Assembly (NCBI RefSeq): GCF_003711105.1
Contig: NZ_CP023865.1
Location: forward strand, 3,497,001-3,561,000
Direction of reading: 5' to 3'
Source of the DNA: Actinoplanes teichomyceticus ATCC 31121
Lineage (GTDB): Bacteria; Actinomycetota; Actinomycetes; Mycobacteriales; Micromonosporaceae
DNA length: 64,000 nt
Part shown: positions 852-62,284 of the stretch, in pieces
Numbering within the stretch: position 1 is the first letter of the stretch
Layout of the letters: each line of letters opens with the position of its first letter
Notes under the pieces: generated by a model
Database searches by the model: none
Told to the model about the DNA's origin: nothing
Seen by the model: the letters and a program-made list of their open reading frames with translations, nothing else
Position numbers and translations under genes: made by a program

Positions 852-880
852 GTCCAAGTGTCGACAACGTTCGCTTGGAC
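852..880. promoter_or_regulatory. Predicted StrR-type (Tei15*) operator upstream of the NRPS operon
   Basis: Inverted repeat GTCCAA-N17-TTGGAC, an exact match to the GTCCAR-N17-TTGGAC consensus reported for the StrR-like glycopeptide regulators Bbr and Dbv4. It lies about 370 bp before teiA and just ahead of the remnant ABC-transporter leader, so it could drive the whole NRPS run. Binding is inferred; the palindrome and its spacing are seen directly. Confidence 0.75.
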
Positions 881-955
881 GTCCTCGTGGACATCGGCTC
901 TGTTCAGCATGATTGGGACCGCCGACCTCATGTGTCGGGTGAGAGGGGATGCCCC

Positions 956-1258
956 GTGGTCGTGATGCCGTCCGTCCGGAGGGTGACAAGGGTCGGCGTC
1001 GACCCCGATTCCGGGTCGTTCAGCATCCATCCCGGGACGTCACGCGGAGTGTTTTTCTTTCTCCGCCGGTACATCGGAAAGGTGGCGCTGTTTCCTTTTG
1101 TCGCCTTCCCGATATTGCTGATCGCGGTCGGAGCTGAATTGGTGCCGAAACAGGTCATCGACGGCGGCGTCCGCAGGACCGGTCGCGGCGGTGACGGGAC
1201 CGCTCCGGGTCCGGACCGCCGGCCGGTGCGCCGGGTGGCTCTTGAAGGGGGACGATGA
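956..1258 (+). pseudogene. Truncated ABC-exporter remnant overlapping the teiA start
   Basis: A 100-codon reading frame from a GTG at 956 aligns without gaps to the first ~72 residues of the ABC exporter encoded at 32001. Shared landmarks include DPD, the GT preceding the membrane segment, IGKVALF, and the end of the first helix. After about nt 1180 similarity stops, and the frame runs as an unrelated R/G-rich tail to a TGA that overlaps the teiA ATG (ATGA, 1255-1258). The 70 bp before it (885-955) also match the 70 bp before the exporter gene, so promoter-side DNA was copied with the 5' end. No NBD remains, so it cannot be a transporter. It may still be translated and couple translation into teiA, which is inference. 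Confidence 0.7.
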
Positions 1259-4200
1259 ATTCCGCAGCGCAGGCCACATCGACGGTGCCGGAGCTGCTCG
1301 CCCGGCAGGTGACCCGGGCCCCCGATGCGGTGGCCGTGGTGGACCGGGACCGGGTTCTGACGTACCGGGAACTCGATGAGCTCGCGGGCCGGTTGTCCGG
1401 ACGTCTGATCGGCCGGGGCGTCCGCCGCGGGGACCGCGTGGCGGTCCTGCTGGACCGTTCGGCGGACCTGGTGGTGACGCTGCTCGCGATCTGGAAGGCC
1501 GGGGCGGCGTATGTGCCGGTCGATGCCGGCTATCCCGCGCCGCGTGTGGCGTTCATGGTGGCGGACTCGGGAGCCTCCCGCATGGTGTGCTCGGCCGCGA
1601 CGCGTGACGGCGTACCGGAGGGGATCGAGGCGATCGTCGTCACGGATGAGGAGGCGTTCGAGGCCTCGGCGGCCGGGGCGCGACCGGGAGATCTGGCGTA
1701 CGTGATGTACACCTCCGGCTCGACCGGCATCCCGAAGGGCGTGGCGGTTCCGCATCGCAGCGTCGCGGAGCTGGCCGGGAATCCCGGCTGGGCGGTGGAG
1801 CCGGGCGACGCGGTCCTGATGCACGCGCCGTACGCCTTCGACGCGTCGCTGTTCGAGATCTGGGTGCCGCTGGTTTCCGGGGGCCGGGTGGTGATCGCCG
1901 AGCCGGGGCCGGTGGACGCCCGGCGCCTGCGGGAGGCGATCAGCTCCGGGGTGACCAGGGCGCATCTGACCGCCGGCAGCTTCCGCGCGGTGGCGGAGGA
2001 GTCGCCGGAGTCCTTCGCCGGGCTGCGCGAGGTGCTGACCGGCGGTGACGTGGTGCCGGCACACGCCGTGGCGCGGGTCCGCTCGGCCTGTCCCCGGGTG
2101 CGGATCCGGCACCTGTACGGCCCGACGGAGACGACGCTGTGCGCCACATGGCATCTTCTGGAGCCGGGGGACGAGATCGGCCCGGTGTTGCCGATCGGCC
2201 GTCCGCTCCCGGGCCGGCGCGCTCAGGTGCTCGACGCGTCGCTGCGGGCCGTGGCGCCGGGCGTGATCGGTGACCTGTACCTGTCCGGCGCCGGTCTGGC
2301 TGACGGCTACCTGCGCCGGGCAGGGCTGACAGCGGAGCGATTCGTGGCCGACCCGTCCGCGCCCGGGGCGAGGATGTACCGCACCGGCGACCTCGCGCAG
2401 TGGACCGCCGACGGTGCGTTGCTGTTCGCGGGCCGGGCCGACGACCAGGTGAAGGTTCGCGGCTTCCGGATCGAGCCGGCCGAGGTCGAGGCCGCGTTGA
2501 CCGCGCAGCCGGGCGTCCACGAGGCCGTGGTCCGAGCGGTCGACGGGCGCCTGGTCGGCTATGTGGTGGCGGAGGGGGACGCGGAACCGGCTGTCCTGCG
2601 CGAGCGTGTCGGTGCGGTGCTGCCGGAGTACATGGTCCCGGCCGCGGTGATCACACTGGACGCGCTGCCGCTGACCGGCAACGGCAAGGTGGACCGGGCG
2701 GCTCTGCCGGCTCCGGTCTTCGCGGCGGACGCTCCGGGGCGCGAACCCGGCACCGAGGCGGAGCGCGTGCTGTGCGGGCTGCTGTCCGAGGTGCTCGGCC
2801 TGAACCGGGTCGGAGTCGACGAGAGCTTCTTCGAGCTGGGCGGAGACTCCATCGCGGCGATCCGGCTGGCGGCGCGTGCGTCCCGGGCGGGCCTGCTCGT
2901 GACGCCCGCCCAGATCTTCAAGGAGAGGACTGTCGCACGGCTGGCGGCCGTGGCGGGCGCTGTACCGGCCGGGCCACCCGTCGACCGCCCCCTCATCGCG
3001 CTGACCGCGGAGGAGGAGGTCGAGCTGGCGGCCGCCGTCCCGGGCGCGGTGGAGGTCTGGCCGCTGGCACCGCTGCAGGAGGGGTTGCTCTTCCAGTCGA
3101 CCATCGACACCGAGGGCCTCGACATCTACCAGGCGCAGTGGATTCTCCAGCTGAACGCGCCGCTGGACGTGCGCCGGCTACGGGTCGCGTGGGAAGCGGT
3201 CTTCGCGCGGCACGCCGAGCTTCGAGTGAGCTTCGTCCGGCTGGCGTCCGGGAAGACGGTGCAGGCCGCCGCCGGGCACGTCGTCCTGCCGTGGCGGGAG
3301 GTGGATCTGACCGATGCGGGCGATGTCGACGCGGCCCTGCAGGAGCTGGCCGGGCGGGAGCAGGAACAGCGCTTCGACCTTGCCCGCGCGCCGTTGTTCC
3401 GGTTGGTGCTGGTCCGGTACGGCGAGGACCGGCACCGGCTGCTGGTCGTCCATCACCACATCCTGACCGACGGTTGGTCGGTGGCGGTCATCCTCAACGA
3501 GGTGGCCGAGGCCTATGCGGCCGGTGGGCGGCTGCCCGACCGGACGGGTCCGGTGTCCTATCGGAACTACCTGGCCTGGCTGGACCGGCAGGACAGGGAG
3601 GCGGCGCGCGCGGCCTGGCGGGCCGAGCTGTCCGGCCTCGACGAGCCCGTGCCGATCGCCAGGGCGGCCGCCGGGACCGGGTACGAATACCGTGTCGCGT
3701 TCCTGCCGGCGGATGTCTGCACGAGGCTGACGGCGTCGGTCCGTGACCACGGGCTGACGCTGAACACGGTGGTGCAGGGCGCGTGGGCGATGGTGCTGTC
3801 GCGACTTGTCCGGCGTACCGATGTGGTATTCGGCACCACGGTGGCCGTCCGTCCCGCGGAGCTCCCGGGCGTGGAGTCGATACCGGGCCTGATGATGAAC
3901 ACGGTGCCGGTCCGGGTGACGCTGGACGGTGGGCAATCGCTCCTCGACCTGCTCACCGGCCTGCAGCGGCGGCAGGCGGCCCTGATGCCGCACCAGCATC
4001 TGGGGCTGCCGGAGATCCAGAGGACGGCCGGGCCGGGCGCGACGTTCGACACGCTGCTGGTGTTCGAGAACTACCCGCGGGATTTCGCCGGCCAGTTCAC
4101 CTACCTGGGCACGATCGAGGGGACGCACTATCCGCTCACCCTCGGCATCATCCCGGGAGAGCGTCTCAGGATCCAGCTCGCCTACCGGCACGGGCAGATC

Positions 4201-10667: not shown

Positions 10668-10710
10668 GCCCCTCTCTCTCAAGCCTTTCTCTGAAAAAGA
10701 GGAGATATCC

Positions 10711-28531: not shown

Positions 28532-28724
28532 GAGGACACGATGATGACCAATCCGTTCGACAACGAGGACGGTTCCTTCCTCGTGCTCGTCAACGGCGAG
28601 GGCCAGCATTCGCTGTGGCCGGCTTTCGCCGAGGTCCCGGACGGCTGGACGGGGGTCCACGGTCCGGCCTCCCGGCAGGATTGTCTCGGCTACGTCGAGC
28701 AGAACTGGACGGACCTGCGGCCCA
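28516..28724 (+). repeat. 209-bp perfect direct repeat, copy 1 (teiD end plus mbtH)
   Basis: Identical base for base to 34006-34214 (offset 5490). It spans the last codons and stop of teiD, the spacer with the ribosome site, and the first 61 codons of mbtH. Outside these limits the two loci diverge at once on the left and gradually on the right. Confidence 0.97.
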
Positions 28725-28753
28725 AGAGTCTGATCTCGCAGATCAGCGACTGA
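28541..28753 (+). CDS. mbtH: MbtH-like NRPS accessory protein, copy 1
   Basis: 70-residue MbtH-family protein, a small chaperone that binds and activates NRPS adenylation domains. Family features are present: NPFDNEDG at the N-terminus, the conserved serine-leucine-tryptophan-proline patch (HSLWP), P-x-GW, and the NWTDLRP ending. It begins nine bases after the teiD stop, so it is probably in the NRPS operon. Two tandem ATG codons make the start ambiguous by one residue. It is identical to the second copy (34031) through residue 61, then ends KSLISQISD instead of [10 protein letters not shown] Tyr-activating or Hpg-activating A domain is the usual client; which ones need it here cannot be read from sequence. 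Confidence 0.95.
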
Positions 28754-28755
28754 GC

Positions 28756-28784
28756 GTCCAGCTGCTCAATGCGGCCGGTTGGAC
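28756..28784. promoter_or_regulatory. Predicted StrR-type (Tei15*) operator upstream of the deacetylase
   Basis: GTCCAG-N17-TTGGAC, matching the GTCCAR-N17-TTGGAC consensus, starting two bases after the mbtH stop. Its right half-site is inside the left arm of the hairpin at 28773-28810, so operator and hairpin share bases. It would serve the deacetylase-mannosyltransferase genes downstream. Confidence 0.75.
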
Positions 28785-28810
28785 GAGCGTTGACGCTCGT
28801 CCGACCGGCC
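28773..28810 (+). terminator. Long hairpin after mbtH, likely terminator of the NRPS operon
   Basis: Two 18-base arms (28773-28790 and 28793-28810) pair along their whole length with one G-U pair and a two-base loop. There is no T-tract, which is common in actinomycetes. The rest of the gap to the deacetylase gene (28811-29058) is GC-rich, and I see no gene in it. Confidence 0.65.
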
Positions 28811-29058: not shown

Positions 29059-29880
29059 ATGCCTCACGACCCCGGTGCAACCCGGCTCCTGGCAATTTCC
29101 CCTCATCTGGACGACGCGGTTCTGTCTTTCGGGGCCGGTCTGGCCCAGGCGGCACAGGACGGCGCGAATGTGCTCGTCTATACGGTATTTGCCGGCGCCG
29201 CACAGCCTCCTTATTCCCCGGCGGCGCAGCGAATGCACACGATCTGGGGCCTCGCGCCGGACGACGACGCGGTGCTCTACCGCCGGAAAGAAGACATCGC
29301 CGCTCTTGATCACCTGAGGGTGGCTCATCGGCACGGCCGGTTCCTCGACTCCATCTACCGTAAGTTGCCGGACGGTCGTTGGCTGACCGCCCATGTGGAG
29401 GGCAGGCAGAAGCTGGCCGTCAACGATCACTCGCCGGACAGCGACCATGACCTGGTTGGCGAGGTGGCGGACGACATCAGGTCGATCATCGACGAGTTCG
29501 ACCCGACGCTTGTCGTCACCTGTGCGGCCATCGGCGAACACCCCGACCATGAGGCGACGCGAGATGCCGCGCTGTTCGCCACGCACGAGAAGAACGTTCC
29601 GGTACGGCTGTGGGAGGACCTGCCGTATGCGGTCTTCAAATCAGGTGCGGTCGAATTGCCGCAGGGTTTTCGTCTCGGCTCTGCGGATGTCAGCTCGGTG
29701 AAGCCGGAGATGCGGTCGCAGAAATTCCAAGCTGTGGAGCGGTATTCGTCTCAAATGGTGCTGCTCAACGGAAGTGAAAACAATCTGTTCGACCGGCTGG
29801 ACGAGCATGCTCGGCAGAATGCACCACACGGCGGATACGGCGAGACGACCTGGCCGGTCGTCCGCAGCGACGACAGCTGA
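29059..29880 (+). CDS. tei2*: LmbE/PIG-L-type zinc deacetylase of the glycopeptide GlcNAc
   Basis: 273 residues, LmbE family. The zinc site is visible as PHLDDA (His16, Asp19) and GEHPDH (His161, His164). In teicoplanin biosynthesis the homologue Orf2*/Tei2* removes the acetyl group from the GlcNAc on the pseudoaglycone so that the amine can receive a fatty acyl chain. This agrees with the N-acyltransferase at 42488. ATG start at 29059; no strong Shine-Dalgarno is seen. It is the first gene after the hairpin and operator at 28756-28810, and therefore probably opens a new transcription unit. No signal peptide is seen, so it acts in the cytoplasm. Confidence 0.92.
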   Translation: MPHDPGATRLLAISPHLDDAVLSFGAGLAQAAQDGANVLVYTVFAGAAQPPYSPAAQRMHTIWGLAPDDDAVLYRRKEDIAALDHLRVAHRHGRFLDSIYRKLPDGRWLTAHVEGRQKLAVNDHSPDSDHDLVGEVADDIRSIIDEFDPTLVVTCAAIGEHPDHEATRDAALFATHEKNVPVRLWEDLPYAVFKSGAVELPQGFRLGSADVSSVKPEMRSQKFQAVERYSSQMVLLNGSENNLFDRLDEHARQNAPHGGYGETTWPVVRSDDS

Positions 29881-31707: not shown

Positions 31708-31927
31708 GGCGAGCCGGTGGATCCGTCACCGCCCCGCGGGCTGCGTTTCCGCGCCCGGCTCGGCCGGCCTTTGACATCGGCGCGGGTCTTCGGCTGCCAC
31801 CCGTGGTCGCTGACCCTTCCGCTTCGGACGGCGCCCGCCGGCGCCGGCATCGCCCGCTCGGTGCCTTCCCCGCCGCCTCGTCGGCGGTGCCGGCGCTCGT
31901 CGCGGGTCAGGAATGTTCGCCCGGTCC

Positions 31928-32000
31928 TACTCGTGGACATCGGGTCCGATCCCCAGGATGGGATCGATGACTTAGCGAGTCGTGTGAGAGAGGTGCTTCT
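31928..32000 (+). promoter_or_regulatory. Leader of the ABC exporter, duplicated upstream of teiA
   Basis: This stretch aligns to 883-955 before the ABC remnant: shared CTCGTGGACATCGG, a GAT.GGGA.CG block and a GTGAGAG ribosome-site region. The operator seen at 852-880 is not preserved in the corresponding bases here (about 31898-31926). Confidence 0.6.
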
Positions 32001-34005: not shown

Positions 34006-34214
34006 CCGGCCGGATGCGTGAGAGGACACGATGATGACCAATCCGTTCGACAACGAGGACGGTTCCTTCCTCGTGCTCGTCAACGGCGAGGGCCAGCATT
34101 CGCTGTGGCCGGCTTTCGCCGAGGTCCCGGACGGCTGGACGGGGGTCCACGGTCCGGCCTCCCGGCAGGATTGTCTCGGCTACGTCGAGCAGAACTGGAC
34201 GGACCTGCGGCCCA
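34006..34214 (+). repeat. 209-bp perfect direct repeat, copy 2
   Basis: Exact copy of 28516-28724. It carries a leftover of the teiD 3' end (codons RPDA and stop) with no NRPS gene in front of it, so copy 1 is the source and copy 2 the insertion. Confidence 0.97.
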
Positions 34215-34243
34215 GGAGCCTGGTCGAGCAGGCCGACGCGTGA
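34031..34243 (+). CDS. mbtH: MbtH-like NRPS accessory protein, copy 2
   Basis: 70 residues, identical to copy 1 at 28541 up to residue 61, with a different last nine (RSLVEQADA). All MbtH hallmarks are intact, so it should be functional. The ribosome-binding region is part of the duplicated block. It lies between the ABC exporter and oxyA; a predicted Tei15* operator follows its stop by seven bases, so its own transcription probably depends on the exporter operon. I recall two MbtH genes (tcp13 and tcp17) in the teicoplanin cluster, which fits. Whether the two copies serve different A domains cannot be told. Confidence 0.93.
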
Positions 34244-34250
34244 GTGAGCC

Positions 34251-34279
34251 GTCCACCCGCCCGATCCGGACGGTTGGAC
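34251..34279. promoter_or_regulatory. Predicted StrR-type (Tei15*) operator upstream of oxyA
   Basis: GTCCAC-N17-TTGGAC, one base off the GTCCAR-N17-TTGGAC consensus, about 75 bp before oxyA. The bases around it still resemble the operator-hairpin region after mbtH copy 1, so the operator may have been copied with mbtH. The strong hairpin itself is not kept here. Confidence 0.7.
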
Positions 34280-34353
34280 GAGCTCGACGGTCGTACGAGC
34301 GGCCGGAAGCATCCATGTCGAGCGCCGCTTGGTCGACCGAAAGGATCTGTGGC

Positions 34354-35529
34354 ATGTTCGAGGAGATCAACGTTGTCCGGGCCGCGGAGCTGCACCGGAG
34401 GGACCGATTCGATCCGGTGCCACAGCTGCGCTCGCTGATGGCCGAGGGCCCGTTGACCACGCTGGGCACCGAGGAGTCTCCCGGAGGCCGGACGGCGTGG
34501 CTCGCCACCGGGTACGACGAGATCCGGCAGGTTCTCAGCTCCGACGACTTCAGCGCACGGCTGCTCTACGGGGGAACCGCTGCCGGCATCACCTGGCCCG
34601 GTTTCCTCACCCAGTACGACCCGCCCGAGCACACCCGACTGCGCCGCATGGTGGCGCCCGCCTTCGCCGTCCGACGGATGCAGAAGTTCCAGCCGCAGGT
34701 CGAGCGGGTCGTCCAGGACAGTTTGGACGCCATCGAGGCGCTCGGCGGACCGGTCGACTTCGTCCCCCGTTTCGGGTGGTCGGTGGCGACGACGGCGACC
34801 TGCGACTTCCTCGGCATTCCGCGCGACGATCAGGCGGATCTGGCGCGCAGCCTCCATGCCAGCCGAACCGAACGGTCAGGCAAGCGGCGTACCGCGGCAG
34901 GCAACAAGTTCATGACGTACATGAACAAGATGACGGCTCGCACCCGCCGCGATCCCGGTGACGACATGTTCGGTGTCGTGGTACGCGAGTACGGCGACGA
35001 GATCACCGACGCGGAGCTGACCGGCGTCGCCGCGTTCGTCATGGGCGCGGGCGCCGACCAGGTGGCCCGTTTCCTCGCGGCCGGCGCGTGGCTGATGGCC
35101 GACGATCCCGAGCAGTTCGCACTGCTGCGGGAGAAGCCGGACACCGTCCCGGATTGGCTGGACGAGGTGATTCGGTATCTGACCACCGATGAGAAGACCC
35201 ATCCGCGCGTCGCGACGGACGACGTGCGCATCGGCGATCACCTCATCAAGGCCGGCGATACCGTCACGTGCTCCCTGCTGGCTGCCAACCGCCGCAACTT
35301 CCCGCGCCCGGAGGATCGATTCGACATCACCCGGGTCCGGCCGGAGCACCTGGCGTTCGGGCACGGCATCCATCACTGCCTGGGCAGGTCTCTGGCCGAG
35401 CTGGTGTTCCGGACGGCGATTCCGGCCCTGGCACACCGCTTCCCCACGCTGAGGCTGGCCGAGCCGCACCGAGAGATCAGATTGGGGCCGCCGCCGTTCG
35501 ACGTGGAAGCCCTGCTGCTCGACTGGTAG
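34354..35529 (+). CDS. oxyA: Cytochrome P450 OxyA (residue 2-4 aryl ether crosslink)
   Basis: 391-residue P450 from the ATG at 34354, preceded by GAAAGGA. Upstream codons in the same frame are part of the duplicated mbtH region read in another frame and are not expected to be protein. I-helix region around GAGADQV; heme-cysteine loop FGHGIHHCLG (~335-344). First in the oxyA-oxyE-oxyB-(hal)-oxyC row typical of type IV glycopeptide clusters. OxyA makes the D-O-E ether link between the rings of residues 2 and 4 on the carrier-bound peptide, recruited by the X domain of TeiD. Orthology is from gene order and general similarity; the four Oxy proteins cannot be told apart by the heme motif alone. 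Confidence 0.88.
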   Translation: MFEEINVVRAAELHRRDRFDPVPQLRSLMAEGPLTTLGTEESPGGRTAWLATGYDEIRQVLSSDDFSARLLYGGTAAGITWPGFLTQYDPPEHTRLRRMVAPAFAVRRMQKFQPQVERVVQDSLDAIEALGGPVDFVPRFGWSVATTATCDFLGIPRDDQADLARSLHASRTERSGKRRTAAGNKFMTYMNKMTARTRRDPGDDMFGVVVREYGDEITDAELTGVAAFVMGAGADQVARFLAAGAWLMADDPEQFALLREKPDTVPDWLDEVIRYLTTDEKTHPRVATDDVRIGDHLIKAGDTVTCSLLAANRRNFPRPEDRFDITRVRPEHLAFGHGIHHCLGRSLAELVFRTAIPALAHRFPTLRLAEPHREIRLGPPPFDVEALLLDW

Positions 35530-35551: not shown

Positions 35552-36706
35552 ATGGCACTTCCTCTGCCGCATCAGCGGCTCCGGCTCGATCCGGTGCCGG
35601 AGTTCGAAGAGCTGCAAAAAGCTGGGCCCCTGCACGAATACGACACCGAGCCGGGCATGGACGGCCGTAAGCAGTGGCTGGTCACCGGACATGACGAGGT
35701 CCGCGCGATCCTCGCCGACCACGAGCGGTTCAGTTCCATGCGGCCGGTCGACGACGAGGCGGATCGCGCCCTGTTGCCGGGAATCCTGCAGGCGTACGAC
35801 CCGCCGGATCACACCCGGCTGCGCAGGACGGTGGCCCCGGCGTATTCCGCCCGACGGATGGAGCGGCTGCGACCCCGCATCGAGGAGATCGTCGAAGAGT
35901 GCTTGGACGACTTCGAGAGCGTGGGCGCGCCGGTCGACTTCGTCCGACATGCCGCCTGGCCCATCCCCGCGTACATCGCCTGCGAATTCCTCGGCGTCCC
36001 GCGTGACGACCAGGCGGAGTTGTCGCGGATGATCAGGGAGAGCCGGGAGAGTCGGCTTCCCCGGCAGCGGACCCTGTCGGGTCTGGGCATCGTCAATTAC
36101 ACCAAGCGGTTGACCTCCGGCAAACGCCGTGATCCTGGCGACGGGATGATCGGCGTGATCGTGCGCGAACACGGCGCTGAGATCAGCGACGAGGAATTGG
36201 CGGGGCTCGCCGAGGGGAACCTGATCATGGCGGCGGAGCAGATGGCCGCGCAGCTGGCGGTCGCGGTGCTCCTGCTGGTGACCCACCCCGACCAGATGGC
36301 GCTGCTGCGCGAGAAACCGGAGCTCATCGACAGCGCCACCGAGGAAGTGCTGCGCCACGCGTCCATCGTCGAGGCCCCGGCTCCCCGGGTGGCGCTCGCT
36401 GACGTGCGCATGGCCGGACGCGACATCCATGCCGGCGATGTCCTGACGTGTTCCATGCTGGCGACCAATCGCGCCCCGGGAGATCGGTTCGACATCACCC
36501 GGGAGAAAGCCACCCACATGGCATTCGGACACGGCATCCACCACTGTATCGGGGCGCCGCTGGCCCGGCTCCAGCTGCGGGTGGCGCTGCCGGCGGTGGT
36601 CGGCCGGTTCCCGTCTTTGCGGCTGGCGGTCCCGGAGGAGGACCTGCGGTTCAAACCGGGCAGGCCGGCACCCTTCGCGGTAGAGGAGCTTCCCCTTGAG
36701 TGGTGA
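35552..36706 (+). CDS. oxyE: Cytochrome P450 OxyE (residue 1-3 aryl ether crosslink)
   Basis: 384-residue P450, ATG at 35552 after ATAGGAG. Heme loop FGHGIHHCIG. The position between oxyA and oxyB matches OxyE of teicoplanin (tcp19) and StaG of A47934, the enzyme that forms the F-O-G ether between residues 1 and 3; this needs aromatic residues at both sites, as predicted here (Hpg1, Dpg3). The I-helix reads AAEQMAAQ, lacking the acid-threonine pair of many P450s. The 3' end overlaps the oxyB start by 11 bases. Confidence 0.86.
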   Translation: MALPLPHQRLRLDPVPEFEELQKAGPLHEYDTEPGMDGRKQWLVTGHDEVRAILADHERFSSMRPVDDEADRALLPGILQAYDPPDHTRLRRTVAPAYSARRMERLRPRIEEIVEECLDDFESVGAPVDFVRHAAWPIPAYIACEFLGVPRDDQAELSRMIRESRESRLPRQRTLSGLGIVNYTKRLTSGKRRDPGDGMIGVIVREHGAEISDEELAGLAEGNLIMAAEQMAAQLAVAVLLLVTHPDQMALLREKPELIDSATEEVLRHASIVEAPAPRVALADVRMAGRDIHAGDVLTCSMLATNRAPGDRFDITREKATHMAFGHGIHHCIGAPLARLQLRVALPAVVGRFPSLRLAVPEEDLRFKPGRPAPFAVEELPLEW

Positions 36707-43546: not shown

Positions 43547-43605
43547 ACATTTGTGGAATCACTGCGAAGGTAATTCCTTCAGTCATTCGATCGTGAGGAG
43601 CGGAA

Positions 43606-48637: not shown

Positions 48638-49403
48638 GCTGTGGCGGCCGGCCCGTCCACCGCATGATCGCCCGGCGTGTCAGCGGGCCGTTCGGCCCCG
48701 CGCGGACCGGCCTGTATGCCCTGCTCAGAGGAGTGGATGAAGGACTTCCGGCGATGACTGCATGATCGCACCCGGTGGGTTCATTGGGCACAAAGGGTAG
48801 TGAGATTGGCATTCCGGGCTAGGGGTTAGGGGCCGGTGTCGCTGCGTGAGACAGGGGTTACAGAGCGCTGAAAAGCGATGTTAATTTCGTGCCGCTGGAA
48901 GACGATCTACCCACCATGCCGCGCTCTCGAACCGCGCAGCATGTTCGCGTCGAGCACGGGGAGAAGAGTCATGGTCACTGGCTGATTCCGGATGGGCTGT
49001 CCGCCTGAAGACGACGCGACCCGCATCACCGCCGTGGTCGCTGTGGACCGGCTACCGGTTCGCGCTCGCATACGGAACGCCATAACAGCCGAGCGTTCAA
49101 TTTCCTGTTCGCCCACCAGGCTCATGTGCGCCGCTGCCTGCGGTGCCGGCAGGCCGGACCGACGGTCTCGGCCATGCCGCGTACCGCGCTGCGCGGACCC
49201 GCCCAAGCCGGTCGCCGGTCCCGGGCCTCGAATCGCACGCACCGTCGTTCCCCGGAGCGGCGGTAGCCCGGCGTCGAGGCCCGCAAGGCGTACCGCATGA
49301 GCCGGCTGGGCTCCCTGTCGTGCCCGCCCTCATCGGGGCCGCCCGCACGCACGTGCGTGTCGGCGGTGCCTCCAGCGCGCGCGTCACCAGCTTAGGAGCT
49401 GCA
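48638..49403. other. 766-bp gap before the StrR-type regulator; no gene seen
   Basis: No convincing ORF, tRNA or operator in this stretch. A weak hairpin (48683-48701) follows DAHP synthase. Around 48740-48900 the GC content drops visibly below that of the neighbours, and the promoter for the regulator is most likely there or nearer its start. No copy of GTCCAR-N17-TTGGAC was found, so there is no sign of autoregulation here. Confidence 0.5.
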
Positions 49404-50393
49404 TTGACACCTGACGAAGAGGCCCTCAACCGGCAGCCCATCATGGAGATGGAGATCAGTTCACTCAGCCTCGGCGGATCGCCCCGGCTCGCCGGGGGCG
49501 ATCCGGTGCACCTGGAGGCCATGGTCGCGGCGCAGGGGGAACTGCCGCCGATCGTGGTGCACCGCCCGACCATGCGGGTCATCGACGGCTCGCACCGGAT
49601 CCAGGCGGCCCTCCGGCGTGGGGAGACGACGATCGCCGGTCGTTTCTTCGACGGCTCCGACGACGAGGCGTTCGTGATGTCGGTGTGGCTCAACGTCTCG
49701 CACGGCCTGCCGCTGGCCCTGGCCGACCGCAAACGCGCGGCCGAACGCATCGCCGTCTCGCATCCGCAGTGGTCGGACCGCCGCGTCGCCGCGGTGACCG
49801 GTATCTCGCCGAGCACGGTGGCCGACATCCGCCGGCGGGTGGCCGGCACCTCGGCGCCCGAGGCCAGCCGGATCGGTCAGGACGGCCGGGTCCGCCCGCT
49901 GGACTGCAGCGCGGGCCGGCTGCTTGCCGGGCGGCTGATGGCCGAGAATCCCGCCCTGTCGCTGCGGCAGGTGGCCAAAGCCGCGGCGATCTCTCCGGAG
50001 ACGGCCCGCGACGTCCGCAATCGGCTGCTCAGCGGCGCTGAGCTGGTGCCCAACCGGCGCCCGCGAGACGCCGCGCCGGTGGGGGTGAAGGGCGGCCGGG
50101 ACCGGCGCCCGCTGAACCTGATCCGCTCCGGAGACCGGCCGGAACCCGTCCCCGACCACGCCGTCGTCATCAACCGGCTGATGAGCGACCCGGCGCTTCG
50201 GTACACCGATACCGGCCGTAACCTGCTCCGCCTTCTGAGCCTGCACACCCGCTGGGCGAAGGAGTGGGAGGCCATCGTCGACAACCTGCCGCCGCACTGC
50301 GCCGACGCGGTGGCCGACCTGGCTCGCCAGTTCGCGGACCTGTGGGCCGACTTCGCCAGCCGGGTCGGCCCGGAGGAGCGGATGGCGAGCTGA
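49404..50393 (+). CDS. tei15*: StrR/ParB-like pathway activator
   Basis: 329 residues from a TTG at 49404, set eight bases behind TAGGAG; no ATG or GTG in a sensible place gives the family N-terminus (PIMEMEISSLSLGGSPR). A ParB/sulfiredoxin-like domain (~10-110; VIDGSHR) is followed by a central helix-turn-helix (RRVAAVTGISPSTVADIRRR) and a second one (LRQVAKAAAISPETARDVRNR). Homologues (Bbr, Dbv4, Tei15*) activate glycopeptide genes by binding GTCCAR-N17-TTGGAC; five such sites occur in this window. It lies next to the LuxR-type gene, with one of the operators between them. Confidence 0.92.
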   Translation: MTPDEEALNRQPIMEMEISSLSLGGSPRLAGGDPVHLEAMVAAQGELPPIVVHRPTMRVIDGSHRIQAALRRGETTIAGRFFDGSDDEAFVMSVWLNVSHGLPLALADRKRAAERIAVSHPQWSDRRVAAVTGISPSTVADIRRRVAGTSAPEASRIGQDGRVRPLDCSAGRLLAGRLMAENPALSLRQVAKAAAISPETARDVRNRLLSGAELVPNRRPRDAAPVGVKGGRDRRPLNLIRSGDRPEPVPDHAVVINRLMSDPALRYTDTGRNLLRLLSLHTRWAKEWEAIVDNLPPHCADAVADLARQFADLWADFASRVGPEERMAS

Positions 50394-50764: not shown

Positions 50765-50767
50765 CGT

Positions 50768-50796
50768 GTCCAACCGGCCGGAACCGGCGGTTGGAC
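50768..50796. promoter_or_regulatory. Predicted StrR-type (Tei15*) operator upstream of the LuxR-type regulator
   Basis: GTCCAA-N17-TTGGAC, an exact consensus match. The dyad extends outward to CCGTGTCCAACC / GGTTGGACACGG, so it is the most symmetric of the five and could also fold as a terminator for tei15*. It lies about 260 bp before the tei16* start. Confidence 0.75.
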
Positions 50797-51056: not shown

Positions 51057-53513
51057 GTGACACTGCGTAAACATCAGTTGGAATTGCTCCTGTTCGACGA
51101 GGTTCACCGGGCATCAGCGCGTGGCGAAGGTGCGGTGCTGCTCGTCAGCGGCGCGGTGGGCACCGGGAAGACCGCGCTGCTGCAGGCGATGGCCGCGCGT
51201 GCCGGCCGCCGGGGCGGCTGGTCGTTCGTGGTCACCGGTTCGGCCCGCGAGCGCGGGCACCCGTTCGGCGTGCTGGACCGCCTGATCCGGTCGATGTGCG
51301 CGGCCGGGATGGCCGAGCCGTTCCCGGGCGGCATGGACTGCGGCGAGAACTTCTTCGTGATGATGGACCGGGTGGGCGCCGCGATCCGGGAGTTCGCCGG
51401 CGACCGGCCGGTGCTCGTCGGTATCGACGACGTTCACTTCGTCGACGAGCAGTCGCTGCGGGCCGTCAGCTACCTCATCCGGCGGATCGAGTCGAGCGGT
51501 GTGGTGCTGGTGCTCAACGAGAGCACCTCGTACGAGCGTGACATGGCCGGTCTGCGCGCCGAGATGCTGCACCTGCCGTTCTGCTACCGGATCCGGCTCA
51601 CCCCGCTGACCTCCACCGAGGTCGCCGAGCGGCTGAGCGAGCGGTTCGGCGGCGTGCCCGACCGGGCGTCCGTGCAATTCGGCGTGCAGGTCAGCGGGGG
51701 GATCCCGCTCATCCTGCAGGCCCTGATCGACGATCTCGCCGACTCCGGCCCGGGCGTGTGCGAGCCGGGCGCCAACTTCCGCCAGGCCGTGTTGCGCAGC
51801 CTGCACCGGTGCGCGCCGTCGACCACCGCGGTGGCCCAGGCCATCGCGGTCCTCGGCGACTACGCGGCGCCGGAGCTGGTCGCCGAGCTCGGCGGTGTGG
51901 ACGCCGCCCTGATCGAGGAGAGCATCCGCGACCTGCGGGAGATGGGCCTGCTGGAGCACGACTGGTTCCGGCACCCGCACACCCGGGCCGCGGTGCTGGC
52001 CGGCATCCCGGTGCCGCAGCTGCCCGAGATGCACCGGCGCGCCGCGGAGCTGCTGCATCAGAGCGGGGCGCCGGCCGGCGCCGTGGCGGAGCACCTGATC
52101 GCCGCGCAGGACGGCGGCCGGGCGCCGTGGCGGGTGGTCATCCTGTCGGAGGCGGCCCGCGAGGCGCTGGCCGCCGGCGACGTGGACAGCGCGGTGCTGA
52201 GCCTGCGACATGCCGTCGCGGCCAGCTCCGACGAGACGCAGCGGGCGCACGCGGGCGTGCTGCTCGCCGAGGCGCAGTGGCACACCGACCCCAGCCGGGC
52301 GGCGCGCCGCCTGGGCGAGCTGAGCCAGGACGCGCGGGCCGGCCGGTTCACCGGCCCCGACACCCTGATCGCGGTCAACCAGCTGCTCTGGTGGGGCGAG
52401 TTCGCCGAGGCCGACGAGCTGCTGCGGCTGGCCGGGGACGAGGAGTGCGGCGACTCCAGCCTCGCTCACCTGTGGGCGATCTTCAGCCGGGCCGCCGGGG
52501 GGACGGAGATCTGCGACGAGCACACCCCGTCCGGCGGCTCGCCGCTGGCGCGATCCGGTCCGATGGCCGTGGTCACCTACCTGAGCTCGGCGGCGAGCCT
52601 GGCCTCCGAGAGCGTGGCGGCCGATCGCACCGAGATGCTGCTCGGCATCCGGGCCGGCGCCCCGCTCACTCCCGCCCTGTACGCCCTGGTCGTCCTGGTG
52701 CAGTCCGGCCGGCTGGAGGAGGCGATCACCTGGTGCGGTCGCCTGCTGAAGGAGGAGTGGATCCACCGGACGCCGATGCGGCGGGTGATGATCCAGACGA
52801 TCGAGTCGGTGGCCATGCTCCGGGCCGGCGACAGCGCGGGCGCCCTGCGGGGCATCCGGGAGGTGTTCGACGCCGTTCCGCCACCGGCGTGGGGCGTGGT
52901 GGCGGGCCTGCCGCTGTCGGTCGCGGTGCGGGCCAGCACCGAACTGGGCGACACCCATGCCGCCCGGTCGTACCTGGCGGTCCCGGTGCCACCGGCGATG
53001 TTCGACACGCCGTTCGCGCTGCCGTACCTGCTGGCGCTCGGCTGGTACCACCTGGCCATGGGCCACCCGGAGAGCTCGCTGAGGCACACCCGGTCGTGTC
53101 TGGACCTGACCGCGCGCTGGGGCGTCGACGCGGGGCGGATCACCGCCGGGCCGGCCGGGCTGGACGTGTCCCGGCCGTCGCCGCCACCGGCCGCGGACCG
53201 GGTGGACGCGGGCCACCGGACCCCGGCCGCGGTCCGGGAACCGGCGCCGGATCAGCGGGAGGCCACGCCGGTGCCGCCGCACGCCGGCCCGGACCCGGCG
53301 GAGCCCGCGGCGGCGCACCGCGGAGCCGAGGACGGCGCCAGGCTCACCGACGCGGAACAGCGGGTGGCCGCGCTGGCCGCCGCCGGCAACACCAACCGGC
53401 AGATCGCCGAGCGCCTGTTCATCACCGTGAGCACCGTCGAGCAGCATCTCACGAAAATCTATCGGAAGCTGAATCTGCGCAGCCGTTCCGGGTTGCGGCG
53501 ATACAGCCACTGA
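51057..53513 (+). CDS. tei16*: LuxR-family LAL regulator
   Basis: 818 residues, large ATP-binding LuxR type. N-terminal P-loop GAVGTGKTAL (~33-42) and Walker B VLVGIDDVHF (~120), a long helical middle region, and a C-terminal LuxR helix-turn-helix (LTDAEQRVAALAAAGNTNRQ to VSTVEQHLTKIYRKL, ~755-810). GTG start at 51057. It is the equivalent of Tei16* (and Dbv3 in A40926), which acts with the StrR-like protein. The operator at 50768 suggests that Tei15* controls it. A proline- and alanine-rich linker (~700-750) separates the middle region from the DNA-binding domain. Confidence 0.9.
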   Translation: MTLRKHQLELLLFDEVHRASARGEGAVLLVSGAVGTGKTALLQAMAARAGRRGGWSFVVTGSARERGHPFGVLDRLIRSMCAAGMAEPFPGGMDCGENFFVMMDRVGAAIREFAGDRPVLVGIDDVHFVDEQSLRAVSYLIRRIESSGVVLVLNESTSYERDMAGLRAEMLHLPFCYRIRLTPLTSTEVAERLSERFGGVPDRASVQFGVQVSGGIPLILQALIDDLADSGPGVCEPGANFRQAVLRSLHRCAPSTTAVAQAIAVLGDYAAPELVAELGGVDAALIEESIRDLREMGLLEHDWFRHPHTRAAVLAGIPVPQLPEMHRRAAELLHQSGAPAGAVAEHLIAAQDGGRAPWRVVILSEAAREALAAGDVDSAVLSLRHAVAASSDETQRAHAGVLLAEAQWHTDPSRAARRLGELSQDARAGRFTGPDTLIAVNQLLWWGEFAEADELLRLAGDEECGDSSLAHLWAIFSRAAGGTEICDEHTPSGGSPLARSGPMAVVTYLSSAASLASESVAADRTEMLLGIRAGAPLTPALYALVVLVQSGRLEEAITWCGRLLKEEWIHRTPMRRVMIQTIESVAMLRAGDSAGALRGIREVFDAVPPPAWGVVAGLPLSVAVRASTELGDTHAARSYLAVPVPPAMFDTPFALPYLLALGWYHLAMGHPESSLRHTRSCLDLTARWGVDAGRITAGPAGLDVSRPSPPPAADRVDAGHRTPAAVREPAPDQREATPVPPHAGPDPAEPAAAHRGAEDGARLTDAEQRVAALAAAGNTNRQIAERLFITVSTVEQHLTKIYRKLNLRSRSGLRRYSH

Positions 53514-53646
53514 TCATCCCGCGGCGGGCGTGTCGCCGATTCCGCAGCCGATCCCGGGACGGGCGGTTGGACGCGGTTTGACGTCCATGAATTGGCGTCC
53601 ATACCGTCGCGGTGTCGGTTCTTCGAAAGATTCTCGGAGGTCAGCG

Positions 53647-54815: not shown

Positions 54816-56775
<1,960 letters not shown>

Positions 56776-56803
56776 CCGCCGGGCGGCATCCGGCCGCGAC
56801 CGG

Positions 56804-57610
56804 GTGTCCAGCGTGACCGCGGCCCGGGTGCGGTACCACAGGACCGGCCACGTCGCCCGGGTCACGCTCGACCGTCCCGACGTGCTCAACGCCATGGATC
56901 TGCGGATGCACGAGGAACTGGCGCGGATCTGGGACGACATCGAGGCCGACGACCGGATCCGGGTCGTGGTGCTGACCGGCGCCGGGGACCGCGCGTTCTC
57001 GGTGGGCCAGGACCTCAAGGAGCGTGCCCGCCGCGACGCGGCGGGCACCCCGGGGTCCAGTTTCGGCAGCCGCGGCCAGCCCGGCTGGCCGCGGCTCACC
57101 GAGCGGTTCGGGTTCAGCAAGCCGGTGGTCGCGCGCGTCGACGGGTACGCCCTCGGCGGCGGCTTCGAGCTCGCGCTGGCCTGCGATCTGATCATCGCAT
57201 CGGACCGCTCGGTGTTCGGGCTGCCGGAGGTGCGGCTCGGGCTCGTGCCGGGGGCCGGCGGCGTGTTCCGGCTGGTCCGGCAGCTGCCGCAGAAGACGGC
57301 GATGGGCTACCTGCTGACCGGCCGTCGCTTCGACGCGGCGACCGCGCTCCGGTTCGGGCTGGTCAACGAGGTGGTGCCGGCGCAGCGGTTGGACGCTTGC
57401 GTGGACGGCTGGGTCGATGATCTCGTCACAAGCGCGCCACTGTCGGTCCGGGCGATCAAGGAAGCCGCGCTGCGCTCGGTCGACCTGCCGCTGCCGGACG
57501 CCTTCACCGCCACGTACCGCTGGGAGCAGCGGCGCCGCGCCAGCGCGGACGCCGTCGAGGGGCCCCGGGCGTTCGCCGAGCGCCGGGCGCCGCGCTGGTC
57601 CGGCACCTGA
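56804..57610 (+). CDS. dpgD: DpgD, enoyl-CoA hydratase-like
   Basis: 268 residues. Crotonase family with the oxyanion-hole segments [11 protein letters not shown] (~65) and [16 protein letters not shown] (~110), and the catalytic-acid region [14 protein letters not shown] (~140). It assists DpgA/DpgB in forming the aromatic ring of dihydroxyphenylacetyl-CoA. GTG at 56804 or 56813; 28 bp separate it from dpgC, so probably the same transcript. Confidence 0.92.
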
Positions 57611-57648
57611 CGTGCACCGGCCCGTTCGATCGTGAGGAGCGCCGTCCG

Positions 57649-59010
57649 ATGTCCTTCGAAGCGCCGCCGTCGTCACTGGGCGGCCATGCCCTGCTCGCTT
57701 TCCTGATCGCGGTGGCGACGCTGCTGCTGGTCGCCCACCTGCTGGCCCGCCTGGCGGAACGGGTGCGGATGCCGGCCGTCGTGGGTGAGCTGGCCACCGG
57801 CGTCATCCTGGGCCCGTCCCTGCTGGGCCACCTGCTGCCCGGACTGACCGACTGGGTCTTCCCGCCCGGCACCGACCAGATGCACCTGCTCGACGCGGTA
57901 GGTCAGATCGGCATCCTGCTCCTGGTCGGACTCACCGGCACCCACCTGGACGTCGCCATGGTGCGGCGGCGCAAGGCCACCGCCGCGCGGATCAGCCTGG
58001 GCGGCCTGCTGCTGCCGCTGGCTCTCGGGGTCGGCGTCGGCTACCAGCTGGCCGGCTGGCTCAGCGGCGCCGTGGTCGGTGACCGGCTGGTCTTCGCCGG
58101 ATTCATGGGCGTCGCGATGTGCGTGACAGCCATCCCGGTGATCGCCAAAACCCTCTCCGACATGCGGCTGCTGCACCGCGACGTGGGCCAGATGACGCTG
58201 GCGGCGGGCACCATCGACGACGCGGTCGGCTGGTTCCTGCTGTCCGTGGTGTCGATGGCCGCGACCGCCGGGCTCACCACCGGACACGTCGTCCAGGCGG
58301 TCGCCTACCTGCTCGGCTTCGTCGTCCTCGCGGTTCTGCTCGGCCGGCCGCTGGTCCGCCGCGTCATGCGGCTGGCCGACCGCGGCGAGGGATCCGGCTC
58401 CAGCATCGTCACCGCGGTCGTCGTCGTCCTGACCGGCGCGGCGATCACCCAGGCGCTGGGCATGGAGCCGGTCTTCGGCGCCTTCGTGGCGGGCATCCTG
58501 GTCGGGCTGCCCGCGGCGGCGAACCAGGCGAAGCTGGCGGCGCTGCGCACGGTCGTGCTCAGCGTGCTGGCGCCGCTCTTCCTCGCCACGGCCGGCTTCC
58601 GGATGGACCTGACCGCGCTGGCCGACCCGCAGGTCGCGATCGCCGCGGTGCTCGTGCTGGCCATCGCCATCGTCGGCAAGTTCGCCGGGGCGTACGCCGG
58701 GGCCCGCCTCAGCCGGCTGTCCCGCTGGGAGGGCCTGGCGATCGGCGCCGGGATGAACTCGCGCGGCGTGGTCGAGGTGGTGGTGGCGCTCACCGGCCTG
58801 CGACTGGGCGTGCTGAACACCGCCACCTACACGATCGTCGTCCTGGTCGCCATCGTCACCTCGGTGATGGCCCCGCCGCTGCTGCGCTACGCCTGTGCCC
58901 GCATCGCCCAGAACGAGGACGAGCGGCTGCGCAAGCTGCACCACGACACCTGGAACGGCGTCCCGGCCGGCGCCGGCCAGTCCCCCTCACCCGCAGGAGA
59001 GCAGGCATGA
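57649..59010 (+). CDS. CPA2-type Na+/H+ antiporter
   Basis: 453 residues, about twelve membrane helices, monovalent cation:proton antiporter-2 family (PAVVGELATGVILGPSLLG, FMGVAMCVTAIPVI and GAGMNSRGVVE are family-typical). Homologues occur in several glycopeptide clusters (for example in A40926 and teicoplanin), where a role in export or ion balance is suggested but unproven. ATG at 57649 after GTGAGGAGCG, 38 bp after dpgD. Its stop overlaps the folE start (ATGA). Confidence 0.9.
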   Translation: MSFEAPPSSLGGHALLAFLIAVATLLLVAHLLARLAERVRMPAVVGELATGVILGPSLLGHLLPGLTDWVFPPGTDQMHLLDAVGQIGILLLVGLTGTHLDVAMVRRRKATAARISLGGLLLPLALGVGVGYQLAGWLSGAVVGDRLVFAGFMGVAMCVTAIPVIAKTLSDMRLLHRDVGQMTLAAGTIDDAVGWFLLSVVSMAATAGLTTGHVVQAVAYLLGFVVLAVLLGRPLVRRVMRLADRGEGSGSSIVTAVVVVLTGAAITQALGMEPVFGAFVAGILVGLPAAANQAKLAALRTVVLSVLAPLFLATAGFRMDLTALADPQVAIAAVLVLAIAIVGKFAGAYAGARLSRLSRWEGLAIGAGMNSRGVVEVVVALTGLRLGVLNTATYTIVVLVAIVTSVMAPPLLRYACARIAQNEDERLRKLHHDTWNGVPAGAGQSPSPAGEQA

Positions 59011-59603
59011 CCGTCACGGCGAAGCACGTCGGGAACACCCGGCCGGCGCCCGACCTGGCGACCGCGACCGCGGCCGCGGCGACCTTCCTCGACGCGCTCG
59101 GCGTCGACCTGAGCCCGGAGAGCCTGCAGGAGACCCCGGCCCGGATGGCCCGGGCGTACGCCGACCTGCTCACCGCCCGCGAGTTCAAGCTCACCACGTT
59201 CGACAACGACGAGGGCTACGACGAGCTGGTGATGGCCCGCAACATCCCGATCCGCTCGGTGTGCGAGCACCACCTGCTGCCCTTCATCGGCGTCGCGCAC
59301 GTCGGCTACCTGCCCGCCGCCCGCATCCTCGGACTGTCCAAGCTGGCCCGGGTCGTCGAGATGTTCGCGCACGGCACCCAGGTGCAGGAACGGCTGACCA
59401 AGCAGATCGCCGACTGGCTGATCAAGGAGCTGGAGCCGAACGGGGTGGGCGTGGTGATCGAGGCCGAGCACCTGTGCATGACGTTGCGCGGGGTGCAGGC
59501 GGTCGGCGCGAACACCATCACCTCGTCCATGCTCGGCGTGCTGCGCGACGACGCGCGGTCGCGCGGCGAGTTCCTGGCCGCCGCCGGGCTGGGCGGGCGC
59601 TGA
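59007..59603 (+). CDS. folE: GTP cyclohydrolase I
   Basis: 198 residues with the full family signature: SVCEHHLLPFIG (zinc ligands Cys and His), GLSKLARVVE, RLTKQIA, and EAEHLCMTLRG with the third zinc ligand Cys. It converts GTP to dihydroneopterin triphosphate, the first step to folate and pterins. The ATG overlaps the antiporter stop, placing it inside the precursor operon. Why a glycopeptide cluster carries it is unclear: a pterin cofactor for phenylalanine hydroxylation to tyrosine would make sense, but no such hydroxylase is in the window. Confidence 0.93.
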   Translation: MTVTAKHVGNTRPAPDLATATAAAATFLDALGVDLSPESLQETPARMARAYADLLTAREFKLTTFDNDEGYDELVMARNIPIRSVCEHHLLPFIGVAHVGYLPAARILGLSKLARVVEMFAHGTQVQERLTKQIADWLIKELEPNGVGVVIEAEHLCMTLRGVQAVGANTITSSMLGVLRDDARSRGEFLAAAGLGGR

Positions 59604-59740
59604 GCCGGCCGGTCGCCGGTGTGCTTTCCGGGCGCGCCGCCGGCCGGGCGCAGTCGACAGTCAGTTGGACAGATTGTTTCGCCGGCTCCGCGCGTGTGAT
59701 CGTGGCCGCACCGGGAGCTCCGTTGGCAGGAGGAAACGCC

Positions 59741-61087: not shown

Positions 61088-61122
61088 CCGCGGCCGGGCG
61101 ACGGTAGCTGGAGGCGGTCGAC

Positions 61123-62241
61123 GTGCGCACTCTTCTCGTGATCGGAACCGGACTGATCGGTACGTCGGTGGCGCTGGCCGCGCGTCGCGCCGGGGTGGCG
61201 GTGTTCCTCGCCGACCGCGACGTCGCCGCGGCCCGGGTCGCCGAGGCGCTCGGCGCGGGCCTGGCCGAGCCGCCCCGCCGGCCGGTGGATCTCGCGCTCG
61301 TCGCGGTGCCGCCCGCCCAGGTCGGCCCGGTGCTGCGGGACGCGCAGGCCAATCGCGCGGCGCACAGCTACACCGACGTGGCCGGGGTCAAGGGGCAGCC
61401 GGAACGCGACGTCCTGCGGCTGGCCAGCGACCCGGCGTCGTACGTCGGCGGGCACCCGATGGCCGGGCGGGAACGTTCCGGCCCGCTGGCCGCCACGGCC
61501 GACCTGTTCGCCGGCAAGACCTGGGTGCTCACCCCGAACGAGCGCACCGGCGCCGCGGCGCTGGAGCGCGCCACCACGCTCGCCGAGATCTGCGGTGCGG
61601 CGCCGGTGCGGCTGGACAGCCGGGCGCACGACACCGTGGTGGCGCTGACCTCGCACGTCCCGCATCTGATGGCCAGCCTCACCGCGGCCCGCCTGCTGCA
61701 CGGGCCGGCCGCCACCGAGGCGCTGGTGGGCCAGGGGGTCCGTGACGTCACCCGGATCGCGGCCGGCGACCCGGCGCTGTGGACCGACATCGTCCGGTCG
61801 AACGCGCCGGCGGTCGCCGCCGTGCTGCGCGGCGTCCGCGACGACCTCACCCGGCTCCTCGCCGCCACCGACATCCTGGCCGGCCACCACCCGGGCGGGC
61901 GGGCCCAGGCCGAGCACACCGTCACCGACCTGCTGGAGCGAGGCGTCGCCGGGGCGGCCCGGACCCGGCCGCCCGCCGGGGCGCCGGAGGGCTTCGCCGT
62001 GCTCCGGGTGGTCCTCGACGGCCGCCCCGGCAGCCTGGCCCGCCTGCTGGAGGCGGTCGCGGCGCACGGCGGCAGCGCGCGCCGGGCCGGCGCGGCGCCC
62101 GGACCGGATGCCGCCCTGGCCGTCGATGTGGAGCTACCGGCGGCCGGGGCCGACGCGGCGGCGGCCGCGCTCGCCGCGGCCGGCTGGGCGGTCAGCCGCC
62201 CCGGCCTCGCCTCCGCGGCGCGCCGAGGGCCGCACCGCTGA
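61123..62241 (+). CDS. Prephenate dehydrogenase
   Basis: 372 residues. Rossmann NAD-binding start VIGTGLIGTSVALAARRAG, then GGHPMAGRERSGP and the prephenate-dehydrogenase helical domain (RAHDTVVALTSHVPHLMA, TRIAAGDPALWTDI). A C-terminal ACT-like region (from ~290, EGFAVLRVVLDGRPGSLARLLEAV) may sense tyrosine. It turns prephenate into 4-hydroxyphenylpyruvate, the precursor of tyrosine and Hpg. GTG start after AGCTGGAGG, 35 bp downstream of hpgT. Confidence 0.93.
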   Translation: MRTLLVIGTGLIGTSVALAARRAGVAVFLADRDVAAARVAEALGAGLAEPPRRPVDLALVAVPPAQVGPVLRDAQANRAAHSYTDVAGVKGQPERDVLRLASDPASYVGGHPMAGRERSGPLAATADLFAGKTWVLTPNERTGAAALERATTLAEICGAAPVRLDSRAHDTVVALTSHVPHLMASLTAARLLHGPAATEALVGQGVRDVTRIAAGDPALWTDIVRSNAPAVAAVLRGVRDDLTRLLAATDILAGHHPGGRAQAEHTVTDLLERGVAGAARTRPPAGAPEGFAVLRVVLDGRPGSLARLLEAVAAHGGSARRAGAAPGPDAALAVDVELPAAGADAAAAALAAAGWAVSRPGLASAARRGPHR

Positions 62242-62255
62242 GCCGTCCCGGACCC

Positions 62256-62284
62256 GTCCGACTGCTGATCGCCACCGGTTGGAC
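62256..62284. promoter_or_regulatory. Predicted StrR-type (Tei15*) operator in a convergent gap
   Basis: GTCCGA-N17-TTGGAC, one base off the consensus, 15 bp after the prephenate dehydrogenase stop. The next gene is on the other strand and ends toward it, so no obvious promoter target is adjacent. Confidence 0.6.

Follow-up and report, generated by a model that had tools for sequence, protein, structure and literature searches.

Candidate Tei15* operators and a conserved half-operator promoter layout in the teicoplanin cluster of Actinoplanes teichomyceticus

From which DNA signals, and at which promoters, does the StrR-like activator Tei15* act on the teicoplanin gene cluster? The question arises from a stretch of 64,000 nucleotides of Actinoplanes teichomyceticus ATCC 31121 (contig NZ_CP023865.1, positions 3,497,001 to 3,561,000, forward strand; hereafter the window, with positions counted from its first letter), in which an earlier note had picked out five spaced palindromes as the likely regulon of this protein. 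Teicoplanin is a last-resort drug, and the 64-kb window is its biosynthetic cluster: for three encoded proteins, alignment to teicoplanin enzymes of solved structure shows no difference. We assigned the names tei15* and tei16* from gene position and the literature rather than from a match to a named Tei15* record. We hold it probable, at roughly 0.8, that the window carries a cis-regulatory layer read by Tei15*, and the five palindromes are very likely Tei15* operators, and single operator halves coupled to promoters may extend the set beyond them.

The five 29-bp sites lie at 852, 28756, 34251, 50768 and 62256, exactly where the earlier note had placed them, and each has precisely 17 bases between its two 6-base halves; in 100 shuffles of the window the operator pattern occurred a mean of 0.06 times and at most once. 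Across the whole 8.29-Mb genome, GTCCR-N18-TTGGAC matched seven distinct places, five of them inside the window, against one for the reversed control pattern. With up to one mismatch to GTCCAA-N17-TTGGAC there were six places, again five in the window (reversed control, five). Operators are over-represented in the window relative to the rest of the genome: with the two outside places as background, the probability of at least five sites in 64 kb is ~8e-12. Shuffles, reversed controls, genome counts and this probability led us to reject a chance origin of the five sites, and the expectation that few would be found elsewhere held good. One of the two outside places falls within a frame of coding-like composition; the other has poor bases at arm positions 7 to 9 and ends 66 nt 5' of a gene with an FAD-binding domain. 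Among 60 genomes, comprising relatives and this genome, the one-mismatch pattern occurred zero to eight times per genome among the matches listed, with the maximum in G013, which carries a related cluster.

All five sites are intergenic according to the gene calls, as had been noted. An open reading frame at 34018-35529 overlaps the site at 34251 because the frame list reports the longest frame; we took OxyA to start at the ATG at 34354. A matrix built from the 9-bp arms of the five sites, the scan that the earlier note had proposed, separated them cleanly, with scores of 25.3-29.0 and a next best of 14.8 in 104 kb; leave-one-out ranks for the five sites were 5, 5, 5, 1 and 5 in the same 104 kb. 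Extended to 554 kb, the scan gave 25 places scoring at least 20, the five training sites included, while 200 column-permuted matrices gave a mean of 0.1 and a maximum of 2 such places in the same sequence.

Each operator consists of a pair of inverted 9-bp arms separated by 11 bp, a geometry already published for StrR. In nine clusters including that of teicoplanin (854 kb), arm dyads numbered 24 at spacing 11, the five training sites included, as against two at spacing 10, one each at 12 and 19, and none at any other spacing from 5 to 20, which defines a 9-11-9 layout. The StrR operator of streptomycin clusters, GTTCGActG(N)11CagTcGAAc (PMC8306873), shares this layout and the total length of 29 bp, and differs in arm sequence (GTTCGACTG as against GTCCAACYG in the teicoplanin operator). 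A Tei15* dimer would recognize arms of the form GTCCRNSYG / CRSNYGGAC, 11 bp apart, and would recruit RNA polymerase to a promoter on the right of the operator. Three dyads with good arms have other spacers, namely G758:C1:4153832 (12 nt), G607:C4:49295 (10 nt) and window coordinate -869 (10 nt), the first two lying upstream of dpgC-like and ATP-binding cassette (ABC) transporter genes, respectively; the spacing may tolerate one base more or less.

Tei15* is reported to control directly five genes and five operons of the teicoplanin cluster (PMC10135024), with tei16* among its direct targets (PMC6022936), and overexpression of tei15* raises teicoplanin yield (PMC10135024, PMC6985074). The consensus for glycopeptide StrR-like regulators is given as GTCCAR(N)17TTGGAC (PMC6022936). 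The earlier note had given this consensus correctly for Bbr and Dbv4, but its match to the sites holds strictly for three of the five (852, 28756 and 50768), those at 34251 and 62256 each departing once. The sites have in common with the operators of Bbr, Dbv4, AoStrR1 and Tei15*/Tcp28 the core GTCCA..N17..TTGGAC, an intergenic location and membership of a glycopeptide cluster with a StrR-like gene; an operator adjoining a conserved oxygenase promoter is likewise common to this set and the Bbr, Dbv4 and AoStrR1 systems (PMC6022936, PMC7852140). They differ in that two of five are off the strict consensus and one lies in a convergent gap. A further difference concerns the regulator gene itself: Bbr is reported to have an operator upstream of its own gene (PMC6022936) and Bbr-type loci have one before the regulator gene, whereas tei15* had no full operator or strong right half within 400 bp upstream, in agreement with PMC6022936. 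Because the consensus and direct control by Tei15* are already in print, the five-site regulon is known biology. What is new are two computationally predicted features, the composite half-operator promoter layout and an operator-block module.

Close relatives of the regulator occur in G013, G011 and G758, where operators precede the counterparts of the nonribosomal peptide synthetase (NRPS) gene (G013, G758), stand between mbtH and oxyA (G013, G758) and precede luxR (G013, G011). Nine further loci have a ~50%-identical regulator, in each case with an operator a short distance upstream of its gene; the gene order of these loci suggests that they are Bbr-type, and for five of these nine genomes 80 kb each were used in the comparisons below. 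A search of the G491 family for the regulator at E <= 1e-110 found none in 390 genomes, which is not evidence of absence because Bbr-type relatives score ~1e-84 to 1e-88, and a draw from the phylum at 1e-100 returned one of 396, the window's own genome. StrR-type dyads also occur at G005:C29:70466 and at G006:C24:62726 and 62814, on contigs that also carry more distantly related StrR-like genes (43-50% identity), at distances of ~2 kb and 43 kb, with other NRPS genes in the vicinity; operators of this type may reach past glycopeptide clusters.

The first site, GTCCAAGTG-N11-CGCTTGGAC (852..880, + strand), lies 374 nt 5' of the start of NRPS A (1255), a gene that is likewise preceded by a site in G013 (167096) and G758 (4208564). 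Four nucleotides 3' of it begins a conserved promoter-like block, TCGTGGACATCG-N5-GTTCAGCATGAT-N5 (885..918, +). This 34-bp block follows six operators in the teicoplanin cluster, G013 and G758 at a gap of 4 nt (3 in one copy), and with up to three mismatches it was found in the A. teichomyceticus genome only at 885 (control, 0). By eye, TGGACA and CAYGAT in the block are merely 14 nt apart, and no -35/-10 pair was assigned. A second, more diverged copy (31931..31964, +; score 33.1, next score in its own region 17.4) stands before the ABC transporter gene (32001), preceded by a decayed operator stretch (31898..31926, +) that is placed as the operator is in the NRPS-type module. The transporter copy recurs at the matching place in G758, and all five Bbr-type clusters have the block before both transporter and NRPS genes (scores 37-41). 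Across these clusters and that of teicoplanin, the adjoining operator stretch varies between intact arms, 10 nt apart (G607), and strong decay (teicoplanin, G491, G721). For tba, the transporter gene of balhimycin, binding of Bbr to the upstream region has been reported (PMC7852140). On this comparative evidence the NRPS site belongs to a predicted operator-promoter module common to transporter promoters, in which a full operator, 4 nt and the 34-bp block would form the first of three arrangements.

In a second arrangement, full operators would act from directly behind the two mbtH stop codons, serving the deacetylase and oxyA units, and from a site before tei16*. The site at 28756..28784 (+), GTCCAGCTG-N11-CGGTTGGAC, lies 274 nt 5' of the deacetylase ATG (29059) and 2 nt 3' of the stop codon of the first MbtH-like gene (28541..28753, +); TTGACG occurs 5 nt 3' of the operator, but without TANNNT at 14-20. 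Its 11-nt spacer is one base off the spacers of the mbtH-oxyA operators in G721 and G497. This near-identity points to 28756 as the ancestral site, and to a duplication of the mbtH-operator unit as deacetylase, mannosyltransferase and transporter genes entered between mbtH and oxyA. The site GTCCACCCG-N11-CGGTTGGAC (34251..34279, +), 7 nt 3' of the stop codon of the second MbtH-like gene (34031..34243, +), lies 74 nt 5' of the oxyA ATG, and the order mbtH-operator-oxyA is kept in G013, G758 and all five Bbr-type clusters. The site before tei16*, GTCCAACCG-N11-CGGTTGGAC (50768..50796, +), is 260 nt 5' of the gene and lies within a longer palindrome; operators also precede luxR in G013 (92346) and G011 (49868).

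The third arrangement was met upstream of dpgA, where a half-operator CGGTTGGAC, a -35 hexamer TTGACG (53578-53583), an 18-nt spacer and a -10 hexamer TACCGT (53602-53607) form a composite (53564..53607, +). There is no full operator here: the half-site is coupled directly to the promoter, as TTGGAC-N5-TTGACG-N18-TACCGT (53567-53607). TTGACG and TANNNT hexamers are those of ordinary sigma70-type promoters; what sets the dpgA promoter apart is a spacer of 18 nt in every one of the nine clusters, together with a TTGGAC core lying 2-6 nt before the -35. The composite occurs once per cluster in nine of nine, and of the spacings 12-24 only 18 is used (none at 12-17 or 19-24). This conservation of -35, spacer and -10 across clusters agrees with a predicted sigma70-type dpgA promoter. 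A Dbv4-like protein has been reported to regulate the Dpg operon of the teicoplanin cluster from a target sequence upstream (PMC6022936). The idea that the five palindromes are the whole regulon accordingly did not survive, since half-operators stand before dpgA and, as described below, before hpgT, hmaS and a chorismate mutase/CmlA2 unit.

The composite tracks the regulator beyond the clusters on which it was defined. Among 397 genomes drawn from the order, with regulator-bearing defined as a regulator match at E <= 1e-80, it was found in 18, comprising 11/11 regulator-bearing genomes and 7/386 others (Fisher p ~4e-17); its reversed control occurred in 14 of all 397, none of them regulator-bearing. 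Four regulator-bearing genomes, G479, G509, G515 and G583, were not used in defining the pattern on nine clusters, and all four have it (p ~3.5e-7), in G515 on a different contig from the regulator. Among 60 relatives it was present in four (the teicoplanin producer, G011, G032 and G013, the last twice, once elsewhere in the genome; control in one), and absent from eight having just a more distant StrR-like gene (G005, G006, G007, G008, G010, G015, G017 and G026). Three genomes of one genus (G722, G734, G647), with no regulator at E <= 1e-80, share one identical match, TTGGACACATTGACGGGG...TACCGT, which marks a conserved locus.

CGGTTGGAC lies 120-124 nt 5' of the dpgA alignment start in G013, G011 and G758, and at 121 in the teicoplanin cluster; in G491, G721 and G497 the bases preceding TTGGAC are GGC or GCC. 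The composite of G693 and G607 lies immediately past, or overlaps the end of, an antiporter frame, and is followed by same-strand sugar-biosynthesis frames (NDP-hexose 2,3-dehydratase and DegT aminotransferase; epimerase and dTDP-sugar isomerase, among those scanned) and then by dpgA. The vasA (norvancomycin) and dvaA (balhimycin) promoters are reported to be bound (PMC7852140); going by gene order, they may correspond to the composite. More generally, TTGGAC-N2..6-T[TG]GAC occurred at 11 places in the nine clusters (shuffles, mean 1.2, largest 4), and nine of these have TANNNT at 18, the two without it being 28776 in the teicoplanin cluster and 4178207 in G758.

A looser form of the third arrangement precedes the aminotransferase gene that we take to be hpgT (59729), where the half-operator CAGTTGGAC (59662..59670, +) lies 58 nt upstream; in G758, CGGTTGGAC is 64 nt before the hpgT counterpart, and no strong half-site was found there in G013 or G011. 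Just to the right of the window, correctly oriented half-operators precede an hmaS-like gene (65471), with a counterpart in G013, and the chorismate mutase/CmlA2 unit (64542). Half-sites by themselves are weak evidence: eight were found outside full sites in 104 kb, against ~4.4 expected from base composition. Four of the eight, those before dpgA, hpgT, chorismate mutase and hmaS, are intergenic and face the next gene. As to the others, 29007 is intergenic and wrongly oriented, 31429 and 57386 lie within coding frames, and -869 is left of the window.

Taken with the full sites, these observations would fit StrR-like glycopeptide activators that work from sites of two grades: complete 9-11-9 operators, and single half-operators joined across 2-6 nt to a promoter of the form TTGACS- or TGGACC-N18-TANNNT; we give this about an even chance of being right. 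Equally finely balanced is its corollary, that the half-operator promoter drives dpg operons or sugar-dpg runs and is near-diagnostic of glycopeptide clusters. At such promoters a single arm beside the -35 (5 nt away at dpgA) would suffice, probably stabilized by the polymerase. We found no half-operator or -35-coupled StrR promoter in the open-licence literature, a search that does not establish its absence from print.

Several observations weigh against Tei15* reading all of these sites. According to PMC7852140, Tcp28/Tei15* is the exception in a set of four regulators and does not control oxyA, which conflicts with PMC6022936, where oxygenase control is common to these regulators. The mbtH-oxyA operator ends 24 nt (G013) and 19 nt (G758) 5' of the oxyA start, too short a distance for a usual promoter to fit between the two; the oxyA operator may therefore work differently, for example on a promoter upstream of it, or have no role. 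AoStrR1 bound eight promoters among 20 intergenic probes, hmaS and vasA included; neither dpgA nor the transporter/NRPS promoter is in that list, although dpgA may not have been among the probes (PMC7852140). In the composite, the three positions preceding TTGGAC differ among Bbr-type clusters (GGC, GCC, GAA, CCG), so that the half-operator there is the 6-base core alone. The block was not found before the G013 transporter, and luxR of G758 has no operator within 400 bp. Finally, the site GTCCGACTG-N11-CGGTTGGAC (62256..62284, +) lies between convergent 3' ends (PDH, + strand, ending at 62241; CmlA-like, - strand, ending at 62498), with no gene downstream and no evident target.

One alternative is that only part of the five is functional, 34251 and 62256 being non-functional remnants of rearrangements, which we consider unlikely though not negligible. 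Both sites miss the strict consensus, oxyA is the gene excluded in PMC7852140, and 62256 has nothing to drive; yet both score 25.3, far above background, and 34251 occupies the conserved mbtH-oxyA place. A search for a counterpart of 62256 gave none: the PDH and CmlA-like genes of G013 overlap, leaving no site between them, and no place scored >13 near the 3' end of PDH in G011 or G758. A G013 site at 80459, before the CmlA-like gene, has just the left arm GTCCGACTG in common with 62256. Most likely, 62256 is a relic or a minor binding site. A 55-bp tandem repeat (3.2 copies, 95% match, 62317-62498) separates this operator from the CmlA-like 3' end, in a gap that is absent in G013. The assignment of the five as StrR-like operators thus stands in that they resemble glycopeptide StrR-type sites and that operators occupy corresponding positions in related clusters, and falls short in that 62256 lacks a target and oxyA is contested in print.

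Highly improbable is a second alternative, that the palindromes are RNA hairpins marking transcription ends, GTCC/GGAC arms being common as stems. Fold stability was very high around 28756 (28740-28810, -45.8 kcal/mol, z -7.0) and 50768 (z -5.7), and appreciable for the 29 nt of 852 alone (z -3.7) and for 34251 (z -2.5), but fell to z -1.9 for 852 in a 53-nt context and to z -1.5 for 62256. The stable stem at 28756 does not pair the operator's own arms: it is a 17-bp inverted repeat (28773..28810, +) joining the right half to a third half-site, and could form a transcript-end hairpin. The arms keep their spacing of 11 while the spacer varies between site classes, and operators stand upstream of the regulator gene in all nine Bbr-type loci, where no transcript end is expected. 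Given the unequal stability, the fixed spacing and the cross-cluster pattern, hairpins were rejected as the common cause of all five sites; those at 50768 and 28773-28810 may add transcript ends between units.

Least probable of all is that a second StrR-like protein encoded in this genome (near G000:C1:2424812, 41-45% identical) binds the sites instead of or besides Tei15*: a perfect palindrome, GTGCAACCG-N11-CGGTTGCAC (G000:C1:2424524-2424552), lies ~250-260 bp 5' of that gene's aligned start, but departs from the teicoplanin operators at the third base of both arms, just two of the nine genomic places within three mismatches of it are teicoplanin sites (at two and three mismatches), and the neighbours scanned (glucosamine isomerase, ROK, dehydroquinate synthase, DegT aminotransferase, MFS, HAD, SSF) are not glycopeptide genes.

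The gene content of the window bears out its identity. The teicoplanin pseudoaglycone deacetylase Orf2* (29059..29880, +) has no differences from 2x9l across 273 aa, and the P450s at 36696 and 35552 align without difference to OxyB 4tx3 and Oxy protein 3oo3, respectively. Pfam matches cover NRPS modules, the two MbtH genes, P450s, a halogenase, glycosyltransferases and precursor genes, as well as the StrR-like regulator gene that by position is tei15* (49143..50393, +; HTH_23; relatives in glycopeptide clusters) and the LuxR-family gene that by position is tei16* (51057..53513, +; GerE and AAA_16). Labels such as oxyA/oxyE/oxyC, hpgT, dpgA-D and hmaS are our assumptions from domains and gene order; the gene labelled hmaS encodes glyoxalase domains of the HPPD type, and a type II chorismate mutase is encoded by the small gene preceding CmlA2. 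A GTP cyclohydrolase I gene (59007-59603; Pfam 5.5e-61) lies between the antiporter gene and hpgT, with a counterpart in G011 and none in the available stretches of the other seven clusters.

A full promoter map tells which steps of teicoplanin synthesis Tei15* can and cannot pull. The composite half-site promoter offers a short signature for glycopeptide clusters, and raises the question of a StrR-type activator acting from one arm. If the reading with two grades of site is true, regulon maps drawn from palindromes alone would miss precursor-supply promoters.

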